From the NCBI RefSeq assembly GCF_020181355.1, contig NZ_CP084004.1, forward strand, positions 1,116,001-1,180,000: a stretch of 64,000 bases of DNA, read 5' to 3'. Each line of letters begins with the position of its first letter. The first letter of the stretch is position 1. This document shows, piece after piece, positions 8,324 through 17,371 of this stretch. The notes beneath the pieces were generated by a model. That model was not told the origin of the DNA and did not search any database. It worked only from the letters and a program-made list of their open reading frames with translations. Origin of the DNA: Collinsella aerofaciens. Lineage in GTDB: Bacteria; Actinomycetota; Coriobacteriia; Coriobacteriales; Coriobacteriaceae. Position numbers and translations under genes: made by a program.

Positions 8324-8367
8324 GAATACCGCATGTTACGTGCATAGAAGGAGGAATGGGAGGAAAC

Positions 8368-11181
8368 GTGGCTGAGAACCTAAGCAACCAGTCTGTACCC
8401 GAAGCCGCGGCGCGCGTCGCTGCCGTGGTCAACCGCCTCGTTAACCGAATCGGCTCGAATGCCGAGTCCAGGGAGCGTCTCGCCGAGATCGAGATCCCCG
8501 AGGAGCTGCGCGACAATCTGGCGCTGTTCTTGCGCCTGGAGCGCCGTGTGCTTAGCGAGTATGATCCCGAGATCGCGGACCTGTTCGACAAGATTTTGAC
8601 AGCCGAGATTGTGGTCAATGCCGGCAACCCCGGTACCTGCGCTGCCGACGAAGCCGTCGACGAGCAGGGCGTGCCCACCGCCGACGAGCCCACTGCCGTG
8701 GCATTTCGTGAGGTCGTCGATTTGATCGACAGCCTGCCGCTCGATAAGCAGCAGGTCATCGTTCGCGCCTTTACGAGCTTTTTCCATCTGGCAAACCTGT
8801 CGGAGGAGAACTACCGTGTGGCGCAGCTGCGCGAGCGCGAGGCCGGTGCGTCGACCGATACCGAGGTCGATCCTGCCAACGAGCTTACCGTTGCCTATCA
8901 CCAGCTGGTGAATGAGCTGGGTGTCGAGGGTGCCAACGAGCTGCTCGACAAGCTCGAGTTCCACCCTGTCTTTACCGCACATCCCACCGAGGCCCGTCGT
9001 AAGGCCGTCGAGGGCAAGATCCGCCGTATCTCCAACCTGCTGGAGGAGCGTCCGCGTCTGGGCGGCTCCGACCTGGTGGAGAACGAGCGCCATATGCTGC
9101 AGGAGATCGACGCCCTGGTGCGTACGAGTCCCATCGCGCTCAAGAAGCCCACGCCGGTCGAGGAAGCCGATACCATCATCGACATCTTCGATAACACGCT
9201 GTTCGACGTTATCCCCGTTATCTATCGTCGTTTTGACGATTGGGTGCTGGGCGACAAGGCCGGTACTGTGCCGCCGCTGTGCCCGGCGTTCTTCCATCCC
9301 GGCAGCTGGATCGGTTCCGACCGCGACGGTAACCCCAACGTCACCGCCAAGGTGAGCCGTGAGGTCGCCGCCAAGTACTTTACGCACATGGTGCTCAAGC
9401 TCGAGGACAAGTGCCGCCACATCGGCCGCAACCTCACGCTCGAGGCTACCTACAGCAAGCCGTCGGCCGAGCTCATTAACCTGTGGAACCATCAGGTCGA
9501 GATGAGCCCTCGTTACACGGCCCGCGCCGAGCTGATCTCCGAGCACGAGCCGCATCGCGCCGTCATGCTCGTCATGGCCGACCGCCTGAACGCCACCGTC
9601 CGTCGTATCACCGACACCATGTACCACAGCGCCGATGAGTTCTTGGAGGACCTGCGCGTCGTCCAGCGCTCGCTGGCCGCCTGCGGTGCCGTCCGTGCTG
9701 CCTACGGCCCGGTCCAGACCATCATCTGGCAGGTCGAGTCCTTCGGCTTCCATATGGTCGAGATGGAGTTCCGTCAGCACTCCGTGGTGCATGCCCGCGC
9801 CCTTAAGGATATCCACGAGAACGGTATCCATGGCGACCTGCAGCCCATGACGCGCGAGGTCATCGATACCTTCCGCGCTATCGGCTCCATCCAAAAGCGC
9901 TACGGCAAGAAGATGGCGCACCGCTACATCATCTCGTTTACCAAGAGCGCTCAGCATGTGGCCGACGTCTTTGAGCTGGCGCACCTGTCCTTTGCACACG
10001 AGGAGGATGTCCCCGAGCTCGACGTGATCCCGTTGTTCGAGCAGCTCGAGGACCTCGAGGGCTGCGTCGACGTGCTCGATCAGATGCTTACGCTGCCCGT
10101 GGTGCAAAAGCGCCTTGCCCAGACCAACCGCCGCATGGAGGTCATGTTGGGCTATTCCGACTCTTCCAAGGATGCCGGTCCTACCACGGCCATGCTCGCG
10201 CTGCACTCCGCGCAGGAGCGCATCGCCAAGTGGGCAGAGAAGAACGATATCGACCTGGTGCTCATGCACGGTCGCGGCGGTGCCGTGGGCCGTGGCGGCG
10301 GCCCGGCCAACAAGGCCGTGCTGGCGCAGCCCAAGGGTTCGGTCAACTGCTTCTTTAAGCTTACCGAGCAGGGCGAGGTCATCTTTGCCCGTTACGGTAA
10401 CCGCACGCTGGCTCAGCGCCATGTTGAGTCCGTTGCTGCCGCAACGCTTTTGCAGTCGGCCCCGAGTGTCGAGAAGACCAACACCGAGACCACGCAGAAG
10501 TTCTGGGATATGGCCGAGAAGCTCAACACCGCAAGCCACGAGCGCTATCTGGACCTGCTGAACACCGAGGACTTTACGCCATGGTTCTCGACCGTGACGC
10601 CGCTGACCGAGGTCGGTCTGCTGCCGATCGGCTCGCGTCCCGCCAAGCGCGGCTTGGGTGCCAAGTCGCTCGACGACCTGCGTACCATCCCGTGGATCTT
10701 CAGCTGGAGCCAGGCGCGCATTAACCTGGCCGCTTGGTACGGTCTGGGCACCGCCTGCGAGCAGCTTGGCGATCTTGACCAGCTCAAGGCTGCCTACCAG
10801 GAGTGGCCGTTCTTCCGCACCTTTATCGACAACATCGAGATGTCGATCGCCAAGACCGACCAGCGCATCGCCAAGATGTATCTGCACCTGGGCGATCGCC
10901 AGGATCTGTCCGAGAAGGTCTTCACCGAGATGCAGCTCACGCGTAAGTGGGTCCTTGCCATCGTCGGTGATGAGTGGCCGCTGCAGCGTCGCCGCGTGCT
11001 CGGTTGCGCCGTCCGCGTGCGCAACCCCTACGTCGACGCCCTGTCCATCGCCCAGGTCCGCGCCCTTCGCGAGGTGCGTATGAACCAGGACGAGATGGCC
11101 GAGGAGAAGAAGGCCGAGTACATGAGCCTGATTCTTTCGACTGTGACCGGCGTCTCGGCAGGATTGCAGAACACGGGGTAA
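8368..11181 (+). CDS. ppc: Phosphoenolpyruvate carboxylase
   Basis: Catalyses PEP plus bicarbonate to oxaloacetate and phosphate, the anaplerotic route to C4 acids and, in gut anaerobes, to succinate. Key motifs are visible: 'FHPVFTAHPTEARR' (catalytic His), 'GSDRDGNPNVTA', 'GYSDSSKDAGP', and the glycine loop 'GRGGAVGRGGGPANKA'. Length of about 937 residues is normal for bacterial PEPC. Two starts compete: ATG 8356, which directly abuts GAAGGAGG, and GTG 8368, which has GGAGG at a 4-base spacing plus the stronger upstream site. The GTG is preferred. The C-terminus ends 'SAGLQNTG', typical of the family and needed for activity. Confidence 0.95.
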   Translation: MAENLSNQSVPEAAARVAAVVNRLVNRIGSNAESRERLAEIEIPEELRDNLALFLRLERRVLSEYDPEIADLFDKILTAEIVVNAGNPGTCAADEAVDEQGVPTADEPTAVAFREVVDLIDSLPLDKQQVIVRAFTSFFHLANLSEENYRVAQLREREAGASTDTEVDPANELTVAYHQLVNELGVEGANELLDKLEFHPVFTAHPTEARRKAVEGKIRRISNLLEERPRLGGSDLVENERHMLQEIDALVRTSPIALKKPTPVEEADTIIDIFDNTLFDVIPVIYRRFDDWVLGDKAGTVPPLCPAFFHPGSWIGSDRDGNPNVTAKVSREVAAKYFTHMVLKLEDKCRHIGRNLTLEATYSKPSAELINLWNHQVEMSPRYTARAELISEHEPHRAVMLVMADRLNATVRRITDTMYHSADEFLEDLRVVQRSLAACGAVRAAYGPVQTIIWQVESFGFHMVEMEFRQHSVVHARALKDIHENGIHGDLQPMTREVIDTFRAIGSIQKRYGKKMAHRYIISFTKSAQHVADVFELAHLSFAHEEDVPELDVIPLFEQLEDLEGCVDVLDQMLTLPVVQKRLAQTNRRMEVMLGYSDSSKDAGPTTAMLALHSAQERIAKWAEKNDIDLVLMHGRGGAVGRGGGPANKAVLAQPKGSVNCFFKLTEQGEVIFARYGNRTLAQRHVESVAAATLLQSAPSVEKTNTETTQKFWDMAEKLNTASHERYLDLLNTEDFTPWFSTVTPLTEVGLLPIGSRPAKRGLGAKSLDDLRTIPWIFSWSQARINLAAWYGLGTACEQLGDLDQLKAAYQEWPFFRTFIDNIEMSIAKTDQRIAKMYLHLGDRQDLSEKVFTEMQLTRKWVLAIVGDEWPLQRRRVLGCAVRVRNPYVDALSIAQVRALREVRMNQDEMAEEKKAEYMSLILSTVTGVSAGLQNTG

Positions 11182-11204
11182 TCGATAGCCCTGTGGCTCT
11201 CACC

Positions 11205-11331
11205 GGGGCCCGATGGGTTTCCCTCTGAATGCGTCCTCGCACTTGAAGCCCCCTTATCCTGCTCCTTCGGAGCTGCGGATAAGGGGGCTTCGTGCTGCGG
11301 AATGCATTCAGAGGGAAACCCATCGGGCCCC
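11205..11331. repeat. Large nested palindrome after ppc
   Basis: Outer arms of about 27 bases (11205-11231 and 11304-11331, reading GGGCCCGATGGGTTTCCC inward) are perfect inverted repeats. Nested inside is a second stem GAAGCCCCCTTATCC (about 11244) / GGATAAGGGGGCTTC (about 11277) capped by GCTCC-TTC-GGAGC. It begins about 24 bases after the ppc stop. It shares the string GCGTCCTCG-AC-TGAA with the palindrome at 14143. Probably a terminator and member of a genome repeat family. Confidence 0.8.
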
Positions 11332-12062
11332 TTCGTCCTCGGTCTTCAGGGATTGGGGCTGAAGGGGATAATGGCGCGCTTCGCGCTTAATGTGGAGTGC
11401 GGCGAGGGCTTCTTGCGTCCTGCGGAGTGTGCCTAAAAGTAAACTAATGGCGGGCCCTGCGATGTCCGGTCTTCGGCGGATCAGCCGCTGGGTGAGGGTG
11501 GTGCTTGGGGCGACGTGCAAAAAACGGAGTTTTCAGCAGCCAAAGATTGATGCATAAGGCCATAGCCGGCTTTCGCTGCCTTTGTTGATGCTTTTGCACG
11601 ACGATTGGGCTTTGGCGACGATCATATATGGCTGGTTTCTCGCCGCATGCTATCCAGATGGGTCGAGTCATGAGGACTATCTACCTTTTGAAAGATTTTT
11701 GGCACCAAAATCTTATCCCGCGATGCTGAATACTCGCAAAAATGCACGCTCCGGAGGGTACTACCCAGTTATGGCCAGAAATCCATGCGCCATCTTATGC
11801 AATTAATTAACGAATTTATGCAAAATGGCTTACGTGCGTACGTCTCGGACTAGATGTTTGCCTCGGCGCTGCGTAAATCATCCTGTCTATAGTGTCTTTG
11901 ACAGGCGGCTGCGGTCCCGTTTGGGATCGTGGCCGTTTTGTTGTGGGTCAAATACGAACGTTGTGTTAATGAGTCGGTGGACGGTGGTGTTTTTCGGTGA
12001 GCGGCGTATCCTTCCAACGGTTTATCTAGTGTGTCAGTTGAAAAGGAAGAGGGCGCTCGTCA
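11332..12062. other. 730-base non-coding stretch before larA
   Basis: No convincing gene is seen; the short open frames lack ribosome sites and recognisable composition. The A+T-richer part 11690-11830 differs from the surroundings. A terminator-like stem lies at about 11904-11940 (CGGC...GGCCG enclosing GCGGTCCC/GGGATCGT) with TTTTGTTG after it. It may be a remnant of a lost gene or a long larA leader. Confidence 0.4.
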
Positions 12063-13340
12063 TTGTTTGAATGTGAACTGCCGTTTGACCACAAGACGTT
12101 GCATCTGGAGCTCGAGGATAAGAACTTCGCGGGTGTGATGGAAGGTCATCAAAACGAGTTTAAGACCACGAAATCGCAGGAAGAGCTGGTAGAGGAGTCG
12201 CTTGCCAACCCTTATGGCTCGCCGTCGCTCGAGGAGCTTTGTGCTGGCAAGAAGGATATTGTCATTATTAGCTCCGATCATACGCGTCCCGTTCCCTCGC
12301 GTGTGACGATGCCTATTCTGCTGCATCACATCCATTCCGCTGCGCCCGAGGCTCGCGTGCGCATTTTGGTTGCTACGGGTATGCATCGTCCGTCGACGCA
12401 TGAGGAACTCGTCAACAAGTACGGCGAGGAGATCGTTGCCAACGAGGAAATCGTTATGCACGTCGCGACTGACGACAGCATGATGAAAAAGATCGGCACC
12501 CTGCCTTCTGGTGGCGAGTGCATCATCAACAAGATTGCCGCCGATTGCGATCTGCTGCTTGCCGAGGGCTTTATTGAGCCGCACTTCTTTGCCGGTTTCT
12601 CTGGTAGCCGCAAGTCCGTCTTGCCTGGCATCGCCAGCTACAAGACCATCATGTACAACCACAACGGTCAGTTTGTGAACGATTCCCATTCGCGTGCCGG
12701 CAACCTGTGCCACAACCACGTGAGCGAGGACATGTTTGCCGCTGCCGAGATGGCTCACCTTGCCTTTGTGCTCAACGTGGTGCTCAACGGCAAGCATGAG
12801 GTTATCGGCTCCTTTGCAGGCGACATCCATAAGGCACACGAGGCTGGCTGCGAGTTCGTGAAGAGCCTTGCCGGCGTTGAGCCCGTCGAGTGCGAGATCG
12901 CCATCACCACCAACGGCGGCTACCCGCTCGACCAGAACATCTATCAGGCCGTGAAGGGCATGTGCTCTGCCGAGGCCACGCTTCCCGAGGGCGGCGTGAT
13001 CATCGACGTCGCCGGTTGTGCCGACGGCCACGGTGGCGAGGGCTTCTATCACAACATCGCCGACAACGATCCGGCGGAGTTTGAGCGTGCCTGCATCGAC
13101 CGTCCTAAGGACGAGACCCTGCCCGACCAGTGGACGAGCCAGATCTTTGCCCGCATCCTGGCGCATCACCCTGTGATCATGGTCACCGACCTGTGCGATC
13201 ACCAGATGATCAAGGATATGCACATGACGCCGGTCAACACCCTCGATGAGGCGCTCAAGCTCGCCTTTGAGATGAAGGGTGCCGATGCCAAGGTGGCCGT
13301 CATTCCCGATGGCCTGGGCGTTGTCGTCGCTCAGCACTAG
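12063..13340 (+). CDS. larA: Nickel-dependent lactate racemase LarA
   Basis: Interconverts L- and D-lactate using the nickel-pincer nucleotide cofactor. Numbered from the TTG start, the residues known to be essential in Lactobacillus plantarum LarA fall at identical positions: Asp72 and Arg75 ('SDHTRPVPSR'), His108 ('ATGMHRPS'), His174 ('IEPHFFAGFSG'), Lys184 ('GSRKSV', which tethers the cofactor) and His200 ('MYNHNG', a nickel ligand). This agreement supports both function and the unusual TTG start; length is 425 against 424. GGAAGAGGG lies about 10 bases upstream. An aquaporin-like gene follows 49 bases later, as larD does in the Lactobacillus operon. The cofactor genes larB and larC are 3 kb downstream on the other strand. 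Other LarA homologues racemise other hydroxy acids, so the substrate is inferred. Confidence 0.92.
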   Translation: MFECELPFDHKTLHLELEDKNFAGVMEGHQNEFKTTKSQEELVEESLANPYGSPSLEELCAGKKDIVIISSDHTRPVPSRVTMPILLHHIHSAAPEARVRILVATGMHRPSTHEELVNKYGEEIVANEEIVMHVATDDSMMKKIGTLPSGGECIINKIAADCDLLLAEGFIEPHFFAGFSGSRKSVLPGIASYKTIMYNHNGQFVNDSHSRAGNLCHNHVSEDMFAAAEMAHLAFVLNVVLNGKHEVIGSFAGDIHKAHEAGCEFVKSLAGVEPVECEIAITTNGGYPLDQNIYQAVKGMCSAEATLPEGGVIIDVAGCADGHGGEGFYHNIADNDPAEFERACIDRPKDETLPDQWTSQIFARILAHHPVIMVTDLCDHQMIKDMHMTPVNTLDEALKLAFEMKGADAKVAVIPDGLGVVVAQH

Positions 13341-13389
13341 TACGCGGCCTAAACGAATCGTTTATAACCGACAAGAAAGATAAGGTTTT

Positions 13390-14121
13390 ATGCTTACCAA
13401 ACTCCTCTGCGAATTCGGCGCAACGGCCCTCATGATCATCTTTGGCGTGGGCGTGCACTGCGATACCGTGCTCAAGGGCACCAAGTATCAGGGCTCCGGT
13501 CACATGTTTGCCATCACCACCTGGTCTTTTGGCATCTCGGTCTGCCTGTTTGTCTTTGGCGGCGCCGTGTGCATGAACCCCGCCATGGTGCTTGCCCAGT
13601 GCATCGTAGGCCTGGTGCCGTGGAGCAGCTGCATCCCCTTCATGATTGCCGATATGCTCGGCGGCTTTGCGGGTGCCGTGATCGCGTGGTTGATGTATGC
13701 CGATGAGTTCAAGGCTTCCGAGGGCGTCGTCGACCCTATTGCCCAGCGCAACATCTTCTCGACCAACCCTACTACCGAGGGCACGAACTATGCTCGCAAC
13801 TTCTTCTGCGAGGCCATCTGCACCTTTGTGTTCATCAGCGCCATCCTTGCTGCCGCTAGCCGCGCCGGCGAGAACGTTTTGATGCTCGCCATCTGCGTCG
13901 GTCTGATCGTTTGGGCTGTTGGCATGGGCATGGGCGGCATCACCGGCTTCGCCATGAACCAGGCTCGTGACCTTGGTCCTCGCATGGCCTATCAGGTGCT
14001 GCCGATTAAGAACAAGGCTGACAACAACTGGAAGTACGGCCTGCTCGTTCCTGGCATCGCACCGTTTATCGGTGCCGCTCTGGCCGCGCTGTTTGTGCAC
14101 GGTTTCTTGGGCATGTTCTAG
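13390..14121 (+). CDS. larD: MIP-family channel, probable lactate channel LarD
   Basis: 243-residue major intrinsic protein (aquaporin/aquaglyceroporin fold) with six hydrophobic helices and the two half-helix loops. The first loop has the standard NPA ('CMNPAMVLAQ', residues 63-65). The second reads 'FAMNQARDLGPRMAY', so the canonical NPA is NQA at 190-192 while the following Arg of the selectivity filter is kept and the GlpF-like 'ARD-GPR' context is intact. Position right after larA suggests it is the lactic acid channel known as LarD in Lactobacillus. It is 49 bases from larA, preceded by AAGAAAGATAAGG, and ends 22 bases before a long palindrome. The alternative is a glycerol facilitator. 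Confidence 0.82.
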   Translation: MLTKLLCEFGATALMIIFGVGVHCDTVLKGTKYQGSGHMFAITTWSFGISVCLFVFGGAVCMNPAMVLAQCIVGLVPWSSCIPFMIADMLGGFAGAVIAWLMYADEFKASEGVVDPIAQRNIFSTNPTTEGTNYARNFFCEAICTFVFISAILAAASRAGENVLMLAICVGLIVWAVGMGMGGITGFAMNQARDLGPRMAYQVLPIKNKADNNWKYGLLVPGIAPFIGAALAALFVHGFLGMF

Positions 14122-14142
14122 TCTGAGGCTACATAGTTGTCC

Positions 14143-14197
14143 GCTGGCCGCATGGGGTAACTTCCCAGCGCGTCCTCGGACATGAAAGAACCCCCGC
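14143..14197. repeat. Left arm of 55-bp palindrome split by an IS
   Basis: This 55-base segment is the exact reverse complement of 15662-15716. The centre-proximal part AAAGAACCCCCGC / GCGGGGGTTCTTT has the look of a bidirectional intrinsic terminator between the converging larD and tetR genes. The IS3 element and 7-11 flanking bases separate the arms. Confidence 0.9.
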
Positions 14198-14249
14198 TGC
14201 GCACTGAACTGCCTCCCATTTCTTGGACATGAGAAATGGGAGGCTTTTT

Positions 14250-14741
14250 ATGCGTGTCGACTTGAGGGTGAAGCACGACATCGAGGCCAGGAAGGCGGCG
14301 ATCGGGCTCTTCGAGCGAGGCCACGGCTCCGAGTCGGCGGCGAAGGCGCTGTCGGTCCCGCGCGACACCGTGAGACAATGGCTCTACGTATACCGGTCGT
14401 TCGGAAGCGAGGTGCTGCTATCCATGGACGGCAAGCAGGCCAGGTACACATACGAGCAGAAGGTCGCCGCCGCCTCGGCCGTGGTCGACGGCGGCATGAG
14501 CAAGCGGGACGCCATGGAGGCGTTCGGGGTCATGTCCTTGGCACCGCTCAAGAGATGGTGCGCGCTCTACCGCGAGGGCGGCGCCGAGGCGCTCAGGCCC
14601 AGGCCCAAGGGCCGGCCGAGCGGTTCCAAGGCGAGGCCGCGGACCCGCGAGGAGGAGCTCGAGGAGCGCTGCCGAAGGCTCGAGACCGAGGTGGCCTACC
14701 TAAAAAAATTGCGTGCCCTGGTCGGGAGGGACGGGCTCTGA
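14250..14741 (+). CDS. IS3-family transposase OrfA
   Basis: 163-residue DNA-binding subunit. Two helix-turn-helix segments are visible, 'SAAKALSVPRDTVRQWLYVY' (about 30-50) and 'SKRDAMEAFGVMSLAPLKRW' (about 85-105), followed by a leucine-zipper-like helix 'EEELEERCRRLETEVAYLKKL' type region, typical of IS150 OrfA. The start ATG follows GGGAGG at a 6-base spacing. The 3' end overlaps the orfB frame and contains the slippery run 14702-14708; the TGA stop lies within the stimulatory hairpin. Confidence 0.88.
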   Translation: MRVDLRVKHDIEARKAAIGLFERGHGSESAAKALSVPRDTVRQWLYVYRSFGSEVLLSMDGKQARYTYEQKVAAASAVVDGGMSKRDAMEAFGVMSLAPLKRWCALYREGGAEALRPRPKGRPSGSKARPRTREEELEERCRRLETEVAYLKKLRALVGRDGL

Positions 14742-14748
14742 CCAGGGC
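14702..14748 (+). promoter_or_regulatory. Programmed -1 frameshift signal of the IS
   Basis: A run of seven A (14702-14708; codons CTA AAA AAA TTG in the orfA frame) is followed six bases later by a perfect 9-bp stem GCCCTGGTC (14715-14723) / GACCAGGGC (14740-14748). The orfA TGA stop is in the hairpin. Slipping back one base continues into the orfB frame, giving the OrfAB fusion transposase expected for IS3 elements. Confidence 0.85.
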
Positions 14749-15612
14749 GAAGGTCGAGGCCGTGAGGGTCCTGCGCGAAGAGGGGCACGGGCTGGGGCGC
14801 CTGCTGGAGTGCGCCGGCATGGCCCGGTCCAGCTACTACTACGCGCTGTCGCACCCGAAGGCTCCCACCAGGCCCGAGCTCTGGGAGGCCGCCGCCGAGA
14901 TATTCTCGCGCACGGCCAACGGGTGCGGCCACAGGCAGATCGCCATGTGCCTGCGCGCCGAGCGGGCGCGCGCATAGCCTACAAGACCGTGCTGAAGATG
15001 ATGCGCGAGATGGGCATCAGCTGCGGGATTCGCCGCGAGACCGACTACCACAGGTACAACTCGTACAGGGGCAAGGTCGGAAAGACCTTCGAGAACGTCA
15101 TCGGGCGCGACTTCGCCGCCGACGGGCCGTGGGAGAAGATGGGCACCGACGTCACCGAGTTCAAGCAGCCCTGGGGCAAGGCCTACTTCGCGCCGGTCTA
15201 CGACTTCGGCAGCAAGGAGATCGTCGCCTGGTCCACGTCGCTGCACCCCAACATGGCTCAGCAGCACGAGCTGCTCGACCAGCTCGTGTCCAGGAAGCCC
15301 AAGGGCTCCAGGCCGATCCTGCACTCGGACATGGGCTGGCAGTACCAGCAGGCCGGTTGGTGCAGGCGGTTGGAGGAGGCCGGCGTGGTGCAGAGCATGT
15401 CCCGGAAGGGCAACTGCATCGACAACGGCGCGACGGAGCAGGTGTTCGGCCACATCAAGGACGAGTTCTTCCGCGGAAGGACGTGGCCGGACTTCGAGTC
15501 CTTCAAGGCGGACCTCGACGACTTCGTGGTCCATTGGAACACGAGGAGGCGCCAGGTTAAACTGAAGGGACTGACCCCGGAGGAGTTCCGGAGACAGTCC
15601 CTTGCGGCGTAG
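14709..15612 (+). pseudogene. IS3-family transposase OrfB, frameshifted
   Basis: Catalytic half of the transposase. The N-terminal segment (HTH_21 type, 'LTRAKVEAVRVLREEGHG' to 'HRQIAMCLRAER') is read in one frame up to a TAG at 14975-14977. The rest, from 'RIAYKTVLKMMREMGI' to the C-terminus, is read in the next frame to 15612. The break lies in the GC-alternating run GCGGGCGCGCGCATAG and is explained by loss of one base. The DDE core is intact downstream: Asp in 'MGTDVTEFKQP', Asp in 'ILHSDMGWQYQ', Glu in 'DNGATEQVFGHIKDEFF'. Either a genuine inactivating deletion or an assembly error in a GC run. Confidence 0.85.
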
Positions 15613-15661
15613 TTCTTATTTAAGCCGTCCAAGTTTTGGGGCGCAGTTCACACTACGTGCG

Positions 15662-15716
15662 GCGGGGGTTCTTTCATGTCCGAGGACGCGCTGGGAAGTT
15701 ACCCCATGCGGCCAGC
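15662..15716. repeat. Right arm of 55-bp palindrome split by an IS
   Basis: Exact reverse complement of 14143-14197 over all 55 bases. Before the IS entered, both arms formed one hairpin of roughly 125 bases between the convergent larD and tetR genes. Confidence 0.9.
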
Positions 15717-15742
15717 TGCGGGATCTTGGCCGCGTTGGAACA

Positions 15743-15817
15743 AGCAGCCCAACATATAAATCTGAATTTGGATTTGGATGGGAGGGGCTTGTTGCTGGTA
15801 GGGGCGTTGGGCTGCTG
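15743..15817. repeat. Inverted repeat downstream of tetR
   Basis: AGCAGCCCAAC and GTTGGGCTGCT form an 11-bp inverted repeat around a 50-base G+T-rich loop. The stretch from 15717 to the tetR stop holds no gene. Confidence 0.4.
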
Positions 15818-15893
15818 TCGACACTTTGGGATGGATTGTGCTTTGGGTTCGGGTCTTTGAGATGAGGGCGGAACTTTGGGATAAGGGGTTTAC

Positions 15894-16433
15894 TTAGTTG
15901 AAGAGGGGCTTTATGGCTGATAAGTAGTCTTTGGCTACGTCGGCTTTGTCTGCTTGGAAGTTGTGCCAGGCCCACCATTGGACGGTGGCTACGAAGCTTG
16001 AGGCTATGTGGTGTAGTAAGAAACTGCGGTCCATGGTGCCAGCGGGGCCTGTGGAGTCGGCGGGGACGGTTTCGGCTGCTCGTGACATGATGGTCTTGCG
16101 TAAGCAGTCGGCGAAGACGCGGGAGCCGGCGCCGGCTACGAGGGCTCGAACGCCCTGGCGGCGCTCCCAGAGGTTGTTGAGGATATGCTCGACCTGCACG
16201 AGTGGGTCGTCGAGCGGTGTGCCATCGTCGTCGAGGGCGTGGGTACAGATGTCGCTCACGAGCTCGGACAGTAGGTCGTCTTTGCTCTTAAAGAGGCCGT
16301 AGAATGTCGCGCGGCCTACGTGAGCGCGCGCGATGATGTCGCCGACGGTAATCTTGCCGTAGTCCACTTCGCGTAGCAGCTCGGAGAACGCCGCAACGAT
16401 GGCAGCGCGGCTTTTTTCTTTGCGGGCATCCAT
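15894..16433 (-). CDS. TetR family transcriptional regulator
   Basis: 179-residue one-component repressor. The N-terminal helix-turn-helix reads 'RAAIVAAFSELLREVDYGKITVGDIIARAHVGRATFYGLFKSKDDLL', abbreviated here as residues 8-55; the rest is the variable ligand domain. The start (complement of 16431-16433) lies only 2 bases after the larC stop, so tetR is the last gene of a larB-larC-tetR transcript. An 11-bp inverted repeat upstream of larB (18208-18241) is a plausible operator. Regulation of the lar genes is therefore inferred from context; in Lactobacillus the lar regulator is a Crp-type protein, so this arrangement differs. Confidence 0.85.
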   Translation of the reverse strand: MDARKEKSRAAIVAAFSELLREVDYGKITVGDIIARAHVGRATFYGLFKSKDDLLSELVSDICTHALDDDGTPLDDPLVQVEHILNNLWERRQGVRALVAGAGSRVFADCLRKTIMSRAAETVPADSTGPAGTMDRSFLLHHIASSFVATVQWWAWHNFQADKADVAKDYLSAIKPLFN

Positions 16434-16435
16434 GG

Positions 16436-17371
16436 CTATGCATCCACGTGAACGAGCAGACAACGGAGCGTGCCGGAGCAACCCTCGTAGGGGCGCTTAC
16501 CGGCGCCGTAGCCGACGGCCTCGATGCGGTAGCGGGCCGGTAGGTGCTCGGACGTGCGCAGTGCGGCGACGATGGCGGCGCCCGTGGGCGTCACGAGCTC
16601 GCCGGCGACCGGTGCGGGCGTGAGGGCGATATTGCCTGCTTGGCATAGGTTGACGACGGCGGGCACCGGGATGGGCATAAGGCCGTGGGCACAGTGGATG
16701 GTGCCGTGACCCTCGGAGAGCGACTCGACGACAATGTCCTCGATACCCAGGTCATCGAGACAGATGGCGACCGAGCAGATGTCGACGATGGAGTCGATGG
16801 CGCCTACCTCGTGGAACATGACGGTCTCGGGCGTTTTGCCGTGGGCCTTGGCCTCGGCGGCGGCGAGCGCGGTAAAGATGGCGAGCGCGCGGCGCTTGGC
16901 GCCATCGCTTAACTGCGAGCCATCGATGATGGCGGCGACATCCGCCAAAGAACGGTGGTGATGGTGGTGGGTGTGGTGATGATCTTCGTGCTCATGGGCG
17001 TGGCCCTCATGGTCGTGCTCATGGCAGTGCTCGTGTTCGTGCCCGCCATGATCATGATGGTGATGCTCATGCCCGTGCTCGTGCGTGTGCTCGTGCGTGT
17101 GCTCGACAGCTGTTTCGTTGCCGTAGAGCCAGGCCATATCGTGGTCGTGGTTCTCGAGTCCCTCTGCAAGCTGGACGTCGAAATCGCAGGCGTCGATGCC
17201 ATGCTTGTTTGCACGCGTGACGGCGATCGTAAAGCCGTCGACCGGCAGTGTGGCGAGCTGTTCGCGCAGGTGCTCCTCGCTGGCGCCCAGATCGAGCAGG
17301 GCCGCGACGGTCATATCGCCGCTGATGCCTGAGGTGCCGTCGATGATAAGCGTGTGCTGATGATTGGACAT
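16436..17371 (-). CDS. larC: LarC-type nickel insertion protein, N-terminal domain only
   Basis: LarC (former DUF111) inserts nickel into the pincer cofactor in a CTP-dependent reaction. The N-terminal family motif 'DGTSGISGDMTVAALLDLGA' and the core 'FHEVGAIDSIVDICSVAICLDDLGI', 'VAGELVTPTGAAIVAAL' and 'GYGAGKRPYEG' are present. Residues 91-139 form a striking metal-binding insert with 28 His in 49 residues. The protein stops at 311 residues with 'LLVHVDA', where the LarC1 part normally ends. The C-terminal LarC2 domain (about 100-150 residues, known to bind CTP) is absent, and the following DNA encodes tetR. The start has AAGGAGC upstream and lies 10 bases after larB. Function with a separate LarC2 encoded elsewhere is possible. 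Confidence 0.88.
   Translation of the reverse strand: MSNHQHTLIIDGTSGISGDMTVAALLDLGASEEHLREQLATLPVDGFTIAVTRANKHGIDACDFDVQLAEGLENHDHDMAWLYGNETAVEHTHEHTHEHGHEHHHHDHGGHEHEHCHEHDHEGHAHEHEDHHHTHHHHHRSLADVAAIIDGSQLSDGAKRRALAIFTALAAAEAKAHGKTPETVMFHEVGAIDSIVDICSVAICLDDLGIEDIVVESLSEGHGTIHCAHGLMPIPVPAVVNLCQAGNIALTPAPVAGELVTPTGAAIVAALRTSEHLPARYRIEAVGYGAGKRPYEGCSGTLRCLLVHVDA

Follow-up and report, generated by a model that had tools for sequence, protein, structure and literature searches.

Why does an insertion sequence (IS) lie in the exact centre of a long palindrome between two converging genes of Collinsella aerofaciens, and was this position a matter of target choice? In the window, by which we mean the whole 64,000-nt stretch analysed here, two 55-nt arms read from the sequence were exact reverse complements of each other, and the repeat finder extended them to 58 nt with 98% complementarity, a length that rules out a chance origin. 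Joining 14143-14204 to 15654-15716, with one CAC removed, rebuilt a hairpin of 125 nt. An earlier note on this DNA had claimed exact 55-base inverted arms, a 1446-bp IS with a CAC duplication in their loop, and a hairpin of about 125 bases between converging genes before the insertion; all three were borne out. The features of the site are as follows.

12063-13340: larA-like (lactate racemase) gene, adjoining the larD-like gene
13390-14121, + strand: larD-like MIP channel gene (Pfam MIP), upstream of the hairpin
14143-14197, no strand: left arm, which forms the perfect palindrome with 15662-15716, its exact reverse complement
14185-14197: inner part of the left arm, terminator-like core, AAAGAACCCCCGC
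14202-14204, no strand: CAC target-site duplication, left copy (read from the sequence)
14205-15650, + strand: IS3-family (IS150-subgroup-like) IS of 1,446 bp, present in 11 copies in its own genome; OrfB of the sibling copy L002 passes the NCBIfam transpos_IS3 cut-off
15651-15653, no strand: CAC target-site duplication, right copy (read from the sequence)
15662-15716, no strand: right arm of the palindrome, reverse complement of the left arm; its lateral box differs in 18 empty orthologous loci
15662-15674: inner part of the right arm, GCGGGGGTTCTTT
15894-16481, - strand: TetR-family regulator gene, converging on the hairpin

To follow this locus in other genomes, the end of larD was located in 26 of 43 genomes of the genus, and the junction could be read in 21 loci (L112 to L132). 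The check on the empty locus that the earlier note had called for gave an intact hairpin in 18 of the 21 sequences and the IS in three. Besides the window copy (L112), the IS was found in the opposite orientation in G021 and shifted by 1 nt in G009, where the same IS end faces larD as in the window and only the left end is present because of a contig break. We interpret them as three independent events at a single apex. Folding energies of the 18 empty hairpins range from -96 to -138 kcal/mol, and for the inner arm there are at least three complementary versions, of the AAAGAACCCCCGC, CAAAAAGGCTCGC and CAAGAAGCTCCCGC types.

The palindrome is perfect in the window, as the earlier note had it, but the intact hairpin is normally imperfect: 17 of the 18 empty hairpins contain an asymmetric internal bubble in which a left box, GTCCTCGGACATG, is opposed on the right by CGTCCTGCGGAATG or a slight variant of it. 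In the window, the right box is now the exact complement of the left box. The opposite change was observed in G018 (L124), where the left box has become the complement of the right one. Perfect symmetry is a derived state, seen in the window strain and in G018. Quasipalindrome correction by template switching is an established mechanism and the likeliest cause, acting here in two directions.

Furthermore, the window palindrome belongs to a family of giant hairpins of about 125 nt with covarying stems and conserved asymmetric boxes. The pattern TCCTCGGACATG-N38-68-TCCTGCGGA occurred in 23 of the 43 genomes of the genus, and the reversed-pattern control gave 0 matches. An alignment of 20 of the 54 distinct sequences revealed changes on both sides at 33 of 50 pairs, with 97.9% of the cells paired compared to 75.9% in shuffled and at most 49.2% in slid alignments, bearing in mind that correction of one arm by the other could alone keep the arms complementary and that the boxes are invariant partly because they served as the search pattern. 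A covariance model placed 13 intact members in the window strain's own genome, besides the two IS-occupied ones (about 15 in total), including a second hairpin within the window:

11210-11326, + strand: second, intact giant hairpin (covariance model R1, E 2.3e-14; fold -112.3 kcal/mol), just 3' of a 941-codon ORF (8356-11181)

In some of these members, the GGAC/GTCC box is changed to GCAC/GTGC or GACC/GGTC and is still complementary. The target of the window insertion was a pre-existing hairpin of about 125 nt from a multicopy Collinsella family. A class-wide search under stricter filters found members in 26 of 296 genomes, which represent 3 of 125 genera, 24 of the 26 genomes being from this genus; the family is almost confined to part of it. 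In 9 of the 13 intact cases, an ORF on the same strand stops 15-39 nt short of the hairpin, so that the giant hairpin looks like a transcribed 3' element; our guess is that it might form a very stable 3' end, maybe acting in both directions. At gathering thresholds, Rfam gave no match in window positions 11000-17000 and matched only an FMN riboswitch among eight loci with intact hairpins. These hairpins form a separate structural family for study.

The IS itself has the ends TGAACTG...CAGTTCA and the following internal features.

14211-14249, + strand: left-end hairpin (arms 14211-14223 and 14232-14244) followed by TTTTT
14250-14741, + strand: orfA, helix-turn-helix protein of 163 aa, 28% identical to InsJ of IS150
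14702-14708, + strand: run of seven A (A7), where a -1 frameshift from orfA into orfB may occur (read from the sequence)
14738-15612, + strand: orfB, DDE transposase with an rve domain; start approximate, frame broken

Assignment to the IS3 family rests on the intact OrfB of L002, which scored 239.6 bits against NF033516 (cut-off 160), on Pfam rve and rve_2 domains in a piece of the window OrfB, and on TG...CA ends combined with a target duplication of 3-4 bp (3 bp at 76, 4 bp at 13 and none at 19 of the 108 clade sites described below). Among three reference elements, which represent three of the five IS3 subgroups named in the part of PMC6211511 that we consulted, IS150 was the closest: InsK gave 193 bits at 38% identity to OrfB, compared to 95.5 bits for InsF of IS3 and an E value of 0.029 for InsD of IS2, and IS150 also has similar ends. 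The frames of orfA and orfB overlap, and the A7 run is a candidate site for programmed -1 frameshifting. The window copy has a further break in orfB, unlike L002, L003, L012 and L013, which have a stop-free frame of 468 codons, and in length it falls 1 base short of the siblings L002 and L003. Given the broken frame, it is probably inactive by itself.

Of 41 distinct left ends, 40 have a stem of at least 7 bp, and in 37 the 8 nt that follow include at least four T; in L251 and L269, the stem found differs from the one that pairs the end repeat. Such a stem occurred at only one of 41 right ends (L022), where a single T follows. In the window, GGGAGG, the likely ribosome-binding sequence of orfA, lies in the 3' arm of the hairpin just before the orfA start, so one hairpin could both stop read-through and hide the ribosome-binding sequence. 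Several IS with hairpins in their first 50 bp, as reported in the part of PMC3196728 available to us, offer a precedent. The hairpin and its T run would stop transcription from entering the transposase gene and partly replace the terminator that the insertion split.

If the hairpin was a chosen target, other copies should tell. The own genome carries 11 copies, three at about 100% and eight at 80% identity, and the 55-base arms do not travel with them: nine of the ten other copies have quite different flanks, and the tenth, L002, has only the hairpin core in common with the window site because it sits in a paralogous hairpin. The earlier note had asked whether copies repeatedly sit in palindrome loops. 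A stem scoring at least 8 and centred on the insertion was found for 8 of the 11 copies; among the others, L004 scored 7, and L008 and L011, which look like half-terminators, scored 5. By eye, 9 of the 11 flank pairs join into an A-tract, a GC stem, a loop, a GC stem and a T-tract, with the insertion in the loop.

We then extended the collection. The IS matched 36 of the 43 genomes of the genus, and a protein search of 296 Coriobacteriia genomes gave a match at E 1e-40 or better in 64 of them and in 30 of 125 genera. For the other genera, 80 regions were fetched; the ends could not be resolved in 17 of them, and another 6 were dropped. One of 19 regions in a separate set (L111) had no usable site, and partial or contig-end matches were left unused. 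The resulting 115 sites with resolved ends comprise 52 from the genus, 56 from other genera and 7 from a sublineage termed C, and span three families of the order; counts over 108 sites exclude sublineage C. Sites were made distinct by their 25-nt flanks, L002 being restored by hand since its outer flanks differ, and an inherited insertion with diverged flanks could be counted twice, as L004 and L277 appear to be. Copies of odd length in G015 and G018 (542-1,915 bp) were considered as MITEs and rejected: where translated, they gave runs of X, from N in their interiors, and we take them as assembly gaps. On that view the flanks of these copies are scaffold joins; they still count as sites here, since their duplications and pairing are consistent.

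Across the 108 sites, a strong stem (score of at least 8) was centred on the insertion at 79, compared to 50 of 2,160 nearby windows. Both halves of the collection contributed (genus, 43/52 vs 21/1,040 background windows; other genera, 36/56 vs 29/1,120). In the genus, the mean stem score reached 12.55 at the site but stayed at 2.5-4.0 in all other steps of 10 nt, and the stem at the site was the best within 110 nt at 39 of 52 genus sites and 32 of 56 sites elsewhere. Strong stems accompanied 40 of 46 genus sites and 28 of 43 other sites with a target duplication, and 3 of 6 and 8 of 13, respectively, without one. The position was precise, the offset from the apex having an SD of 1.09 and 1.19 nt among sites scoring at least 6. 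A separate count from folds, which includes sublineage C, requires an apex with at least 8 pairs and uses random windows of the same loci as controls, put 46 of 58 sites within 2 nt of an apex compared to 145 of 1,146 control windows.

Furthermore, the two arms of a site mostly match each other. After removal of sublineage C and of 23 genus sites with ACCACC-type arms, many of which represent one repeat and are not independent targets, arms paired at 53 of the 85 remaining sites, small shifts being allowed, compared to 4.5 on average and 13 at most when arms were swapped between sites (2,000 permutations). Information per aligned position reached at most 0.53 bit over these 85 heterogeneous sites; this maximum reflects a C-rich/G-rich arm preference, so sequence is not irrelevant to targeting. 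Among the 79 strong sites, half-stem length varied more (SD 3.5 nt) than the apex offset (SD 0.98 nt), showing that the insertion tracks the apex instead of keeping a set distance to the base of the stem. Of the 79 sites, 65 had an A or T tract on either side and 14 had none, and the two orientations relative to the IS were about equally frequent (T>A, 37; A>T, 33). At most sites, the centre of insertion thus coincides with the centre of a hairpin within about 1 nt, the stems differ, the site's own arms match and there is no orientation bias. The targets are mostly terminator-like hairpins of differing sequence, their terminator function being predicted from the sequence. The earlier note's suggestion that the IS may recognise hairpins or terminators therefore finds support in a wider clade, with exceptions, and we consider it very probable that the element is a member of an IS3-family clade, IS150-subgroup-like, whose insertions fall at palindrome apices, mostly in terminator-like hairpins or repeats.

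There are exceptions: 29 of the 108 sites scored below 8, and at L020, L226 and L233 (scores 3, 2 and 2) there is no hairpin. One sublineage is almost confined to AAACCACCACAAAGG...CCTTTGTGGTGGTTT repeats. Sublineage C, from G001, showed an apex stem at 0 of 7 sites (background, 4 of 140), and its left end lacks a stem of 7, although weaker imperfect pairing can be drawn there. That a lineage which left terminators also lacks the left-end stem is only suggestive, being a single case. All seven sublineage C copies (L047, L049, L052, L054, L057, L060 and L063; 1,452-1,464 bp) adjoin GGGACAG repeats. More distant relatives at 34-38% identity, compared by their copies in G110, G007, G250 and G251, gave no clear apex insertion, some cases being ambiguous, and were left out of the site counts. 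In G007, two loci (L267 and L268) hold an IS at 37% identity which, by eye, occupies the long loop of a different inverted repeat (TTGCGGTGAAATA...).

A scan of contigs returned 61 loci, including C. aerofaciens, Adlercreutzia, Gordonibacter, Gleimia and, at about 36% identity, Bacteroidota. We tried 29 loci from Bacteroidota and other distant hosts, of which 19 had a pair of ends, 12 a duplication as well and 10 also both flanks. Seven of these ten usable sites (L402, L403, L412, L417, L418, L422 and L423) scored at least 8 and three (L405, L409 and L410) failed, compared to 10 of 233 background windows taken over the 19 loci with ends. The arms at the Bacteroidota sites differ from those in Collinsella, most of them having a higher A and T content. 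In a tree of 58 OrfB proteins, whose outer order is uncertain owing to long branches, the Coriobacteriia elements and the Gleimia one formed a single group (100/98) within which the ACCACC sublineage and sublineage C are nested; target labels on this tree were assigned by hand, and L022 (3.5), L228 (4) and L232 (6), though labelled apex, have weak stems of their own.

InsK of IS150 grouped with the Bacteroidota elements outside the Coriobacteriia clade (94/99, without resolution inside the group), and IS150 was used as a control. From 6,053 E. coli places in the collection, 17 copies were read (MG1655 and 16 matches), giving 10 distinct sites, none of which had a stem of at least 8 at the insertion. 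By eye, 7 of the 10 lie just before the GAGGC arm of a GCCCC...GAGGC hairpin, on the 3' side of its loop. This proximity to hairpin arms means that an association with hairpins may predate the Coriobacteriia clade, whereas precision at the apex is a property of that clade and the Bacteroidota group. We also observed that hok or mok genes adjoin seven of the ten E. coli sites (L433, L437, L438, L441, L442, L443 and L448).

What, then, brings the IS to the apex? Of the ways to account for the pattern, the idea that the 55-base arms are part of the IS or were made by it is virtually impossible: the arms do flank the element symmetrically, but the palindrome is present without the IS in 18 orthologous loci and the flanks of the other copies differ, in agreement with the earlier note's view that the arms are not IS repeats. 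Survival bias, under which insertion is random and only the least harmful events, in terminator regions after genes, persist, would suit the window copy with its place between two convergent genes. Such bias does not account for a precision of about 1 nt or for the drop to background within 10 nt, and the same score gives 0 of 7 for sublineage C in the same genus and 0 of 10 for E. coli IS150, making it a very improbable explanation. Sequence-specific targeting of a few repeat families, as IS1397 or ISPsy8 do with REP, with palindromy as a by-product, draws on the sublineage tied to one repeat type, on two own-genome copies in the same giant-hairpin core and on the weak C/G arm bias. Yet 53 of 85 sites still pair once that repeat type is set aside, arms cannot be swapped between sites and the more AT-rich terminator-like hairpins of Bacteroidota are targeted too; we regard this reading as decidedly unlikely.

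Less easily dismissed, though still unlikely, is targeting linked to transcription, in which the transposition complex would be drawn to RNA polymerase, an R-loop or nascent hairpin RNA and not to the shape of the DNA. The terminator-like targets and the A or T tract at 65 of 79 strong sites speak for it, but the IS has no preferred orientation relative to the T tract (37 vs 33) and 14 of the 79 strong sites lack any such tract. The mechanism that we consider probable is that the transposition complex reads the two-fold symmetry or the folded apex of the target: it would bind two symmetric half-sites or the tip of an extruded cruciform, and both IS ends would be joined 3 bp apart, staggered across the apex. 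Symmetric binding with joining at 3 bp would place the insertion centrally, duplicate 3 bp and favour neither orientation, as observed. A bolder reading, which we offer tentatively and at less than even confidence, is that a phylum-spanning branch of IS150-like transposases responds to any terminator-like DNA hairpin through its folded or two-fold-symmetric apex, by shape more than by sequence, and that the elements carry a stand-in terminator at their left end. If this is true, the transposase would be a protein-only reader of DNA cruciforms, providing a testable case for structure-directed integration by protein alone.

The closest known parallels are IS1397, ISKpn1 and ISPsy8, which are likewise IS3-family elements inserted in palindromic repeats; ISPsy8 occupies the axis of symmetry of a REP hairpin, where it has duplicated 3 bp (PMC1525189). 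Insertion at a symmetry axis is shared by the clade described here, at 79 of 108 sites and with an offset SD of about 1 nt. However, those elements each target one repeat family per species, whereas the 85 heterogeneous sites do not belong to one defined family: their arms are not exchangeable, the stems are many and the common factor is the apex. IS150 differs in turn, with no distinct site at an apex by score. Group IIC introns are linked to terminators and are RNA-based retroelements that insert beside the stem. Like the IS as read here, they are mobile and are guided by the shape of a DNA stem-loop (PMC10190682), whereas the IS has a DDE transposase, produces target duplications and inserts inside the loop. 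Literature searches, in which subscription journals were thinly covered, returned REP-targeting IS and group II introns and no report of IS3 elements targeting intrinsic terminators at large; nor is such insertion mentioned in the accessible parts of PMC1525189, PMC9208149, PMC3196728, PMC6211511, PMC2430713 and PMC10190682. Insertion at the centres of REP hairpins is thus known, and the targeting of terminator apices at large appears to be a new form of it.

Target choice decides how an IS spreads without killing its host, and for a DDE transposase that finds terminator tips, any bacterium would offer plenty of safe sites. Such targeting would explain the place of the window copy between convergent genes, which also fits the overrepresentation of IS3 and other families between convergent genes reported in the part of PMC9208149 that we consulted. 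A large supply of safe sites would further fit the fact that two families of the order share the element with 99% protein identity: G228, from another family, carries eight copies (L199-L206) whose OrfB is 99% identical to that of a sibling of the window element, pointing to a recent transfer.
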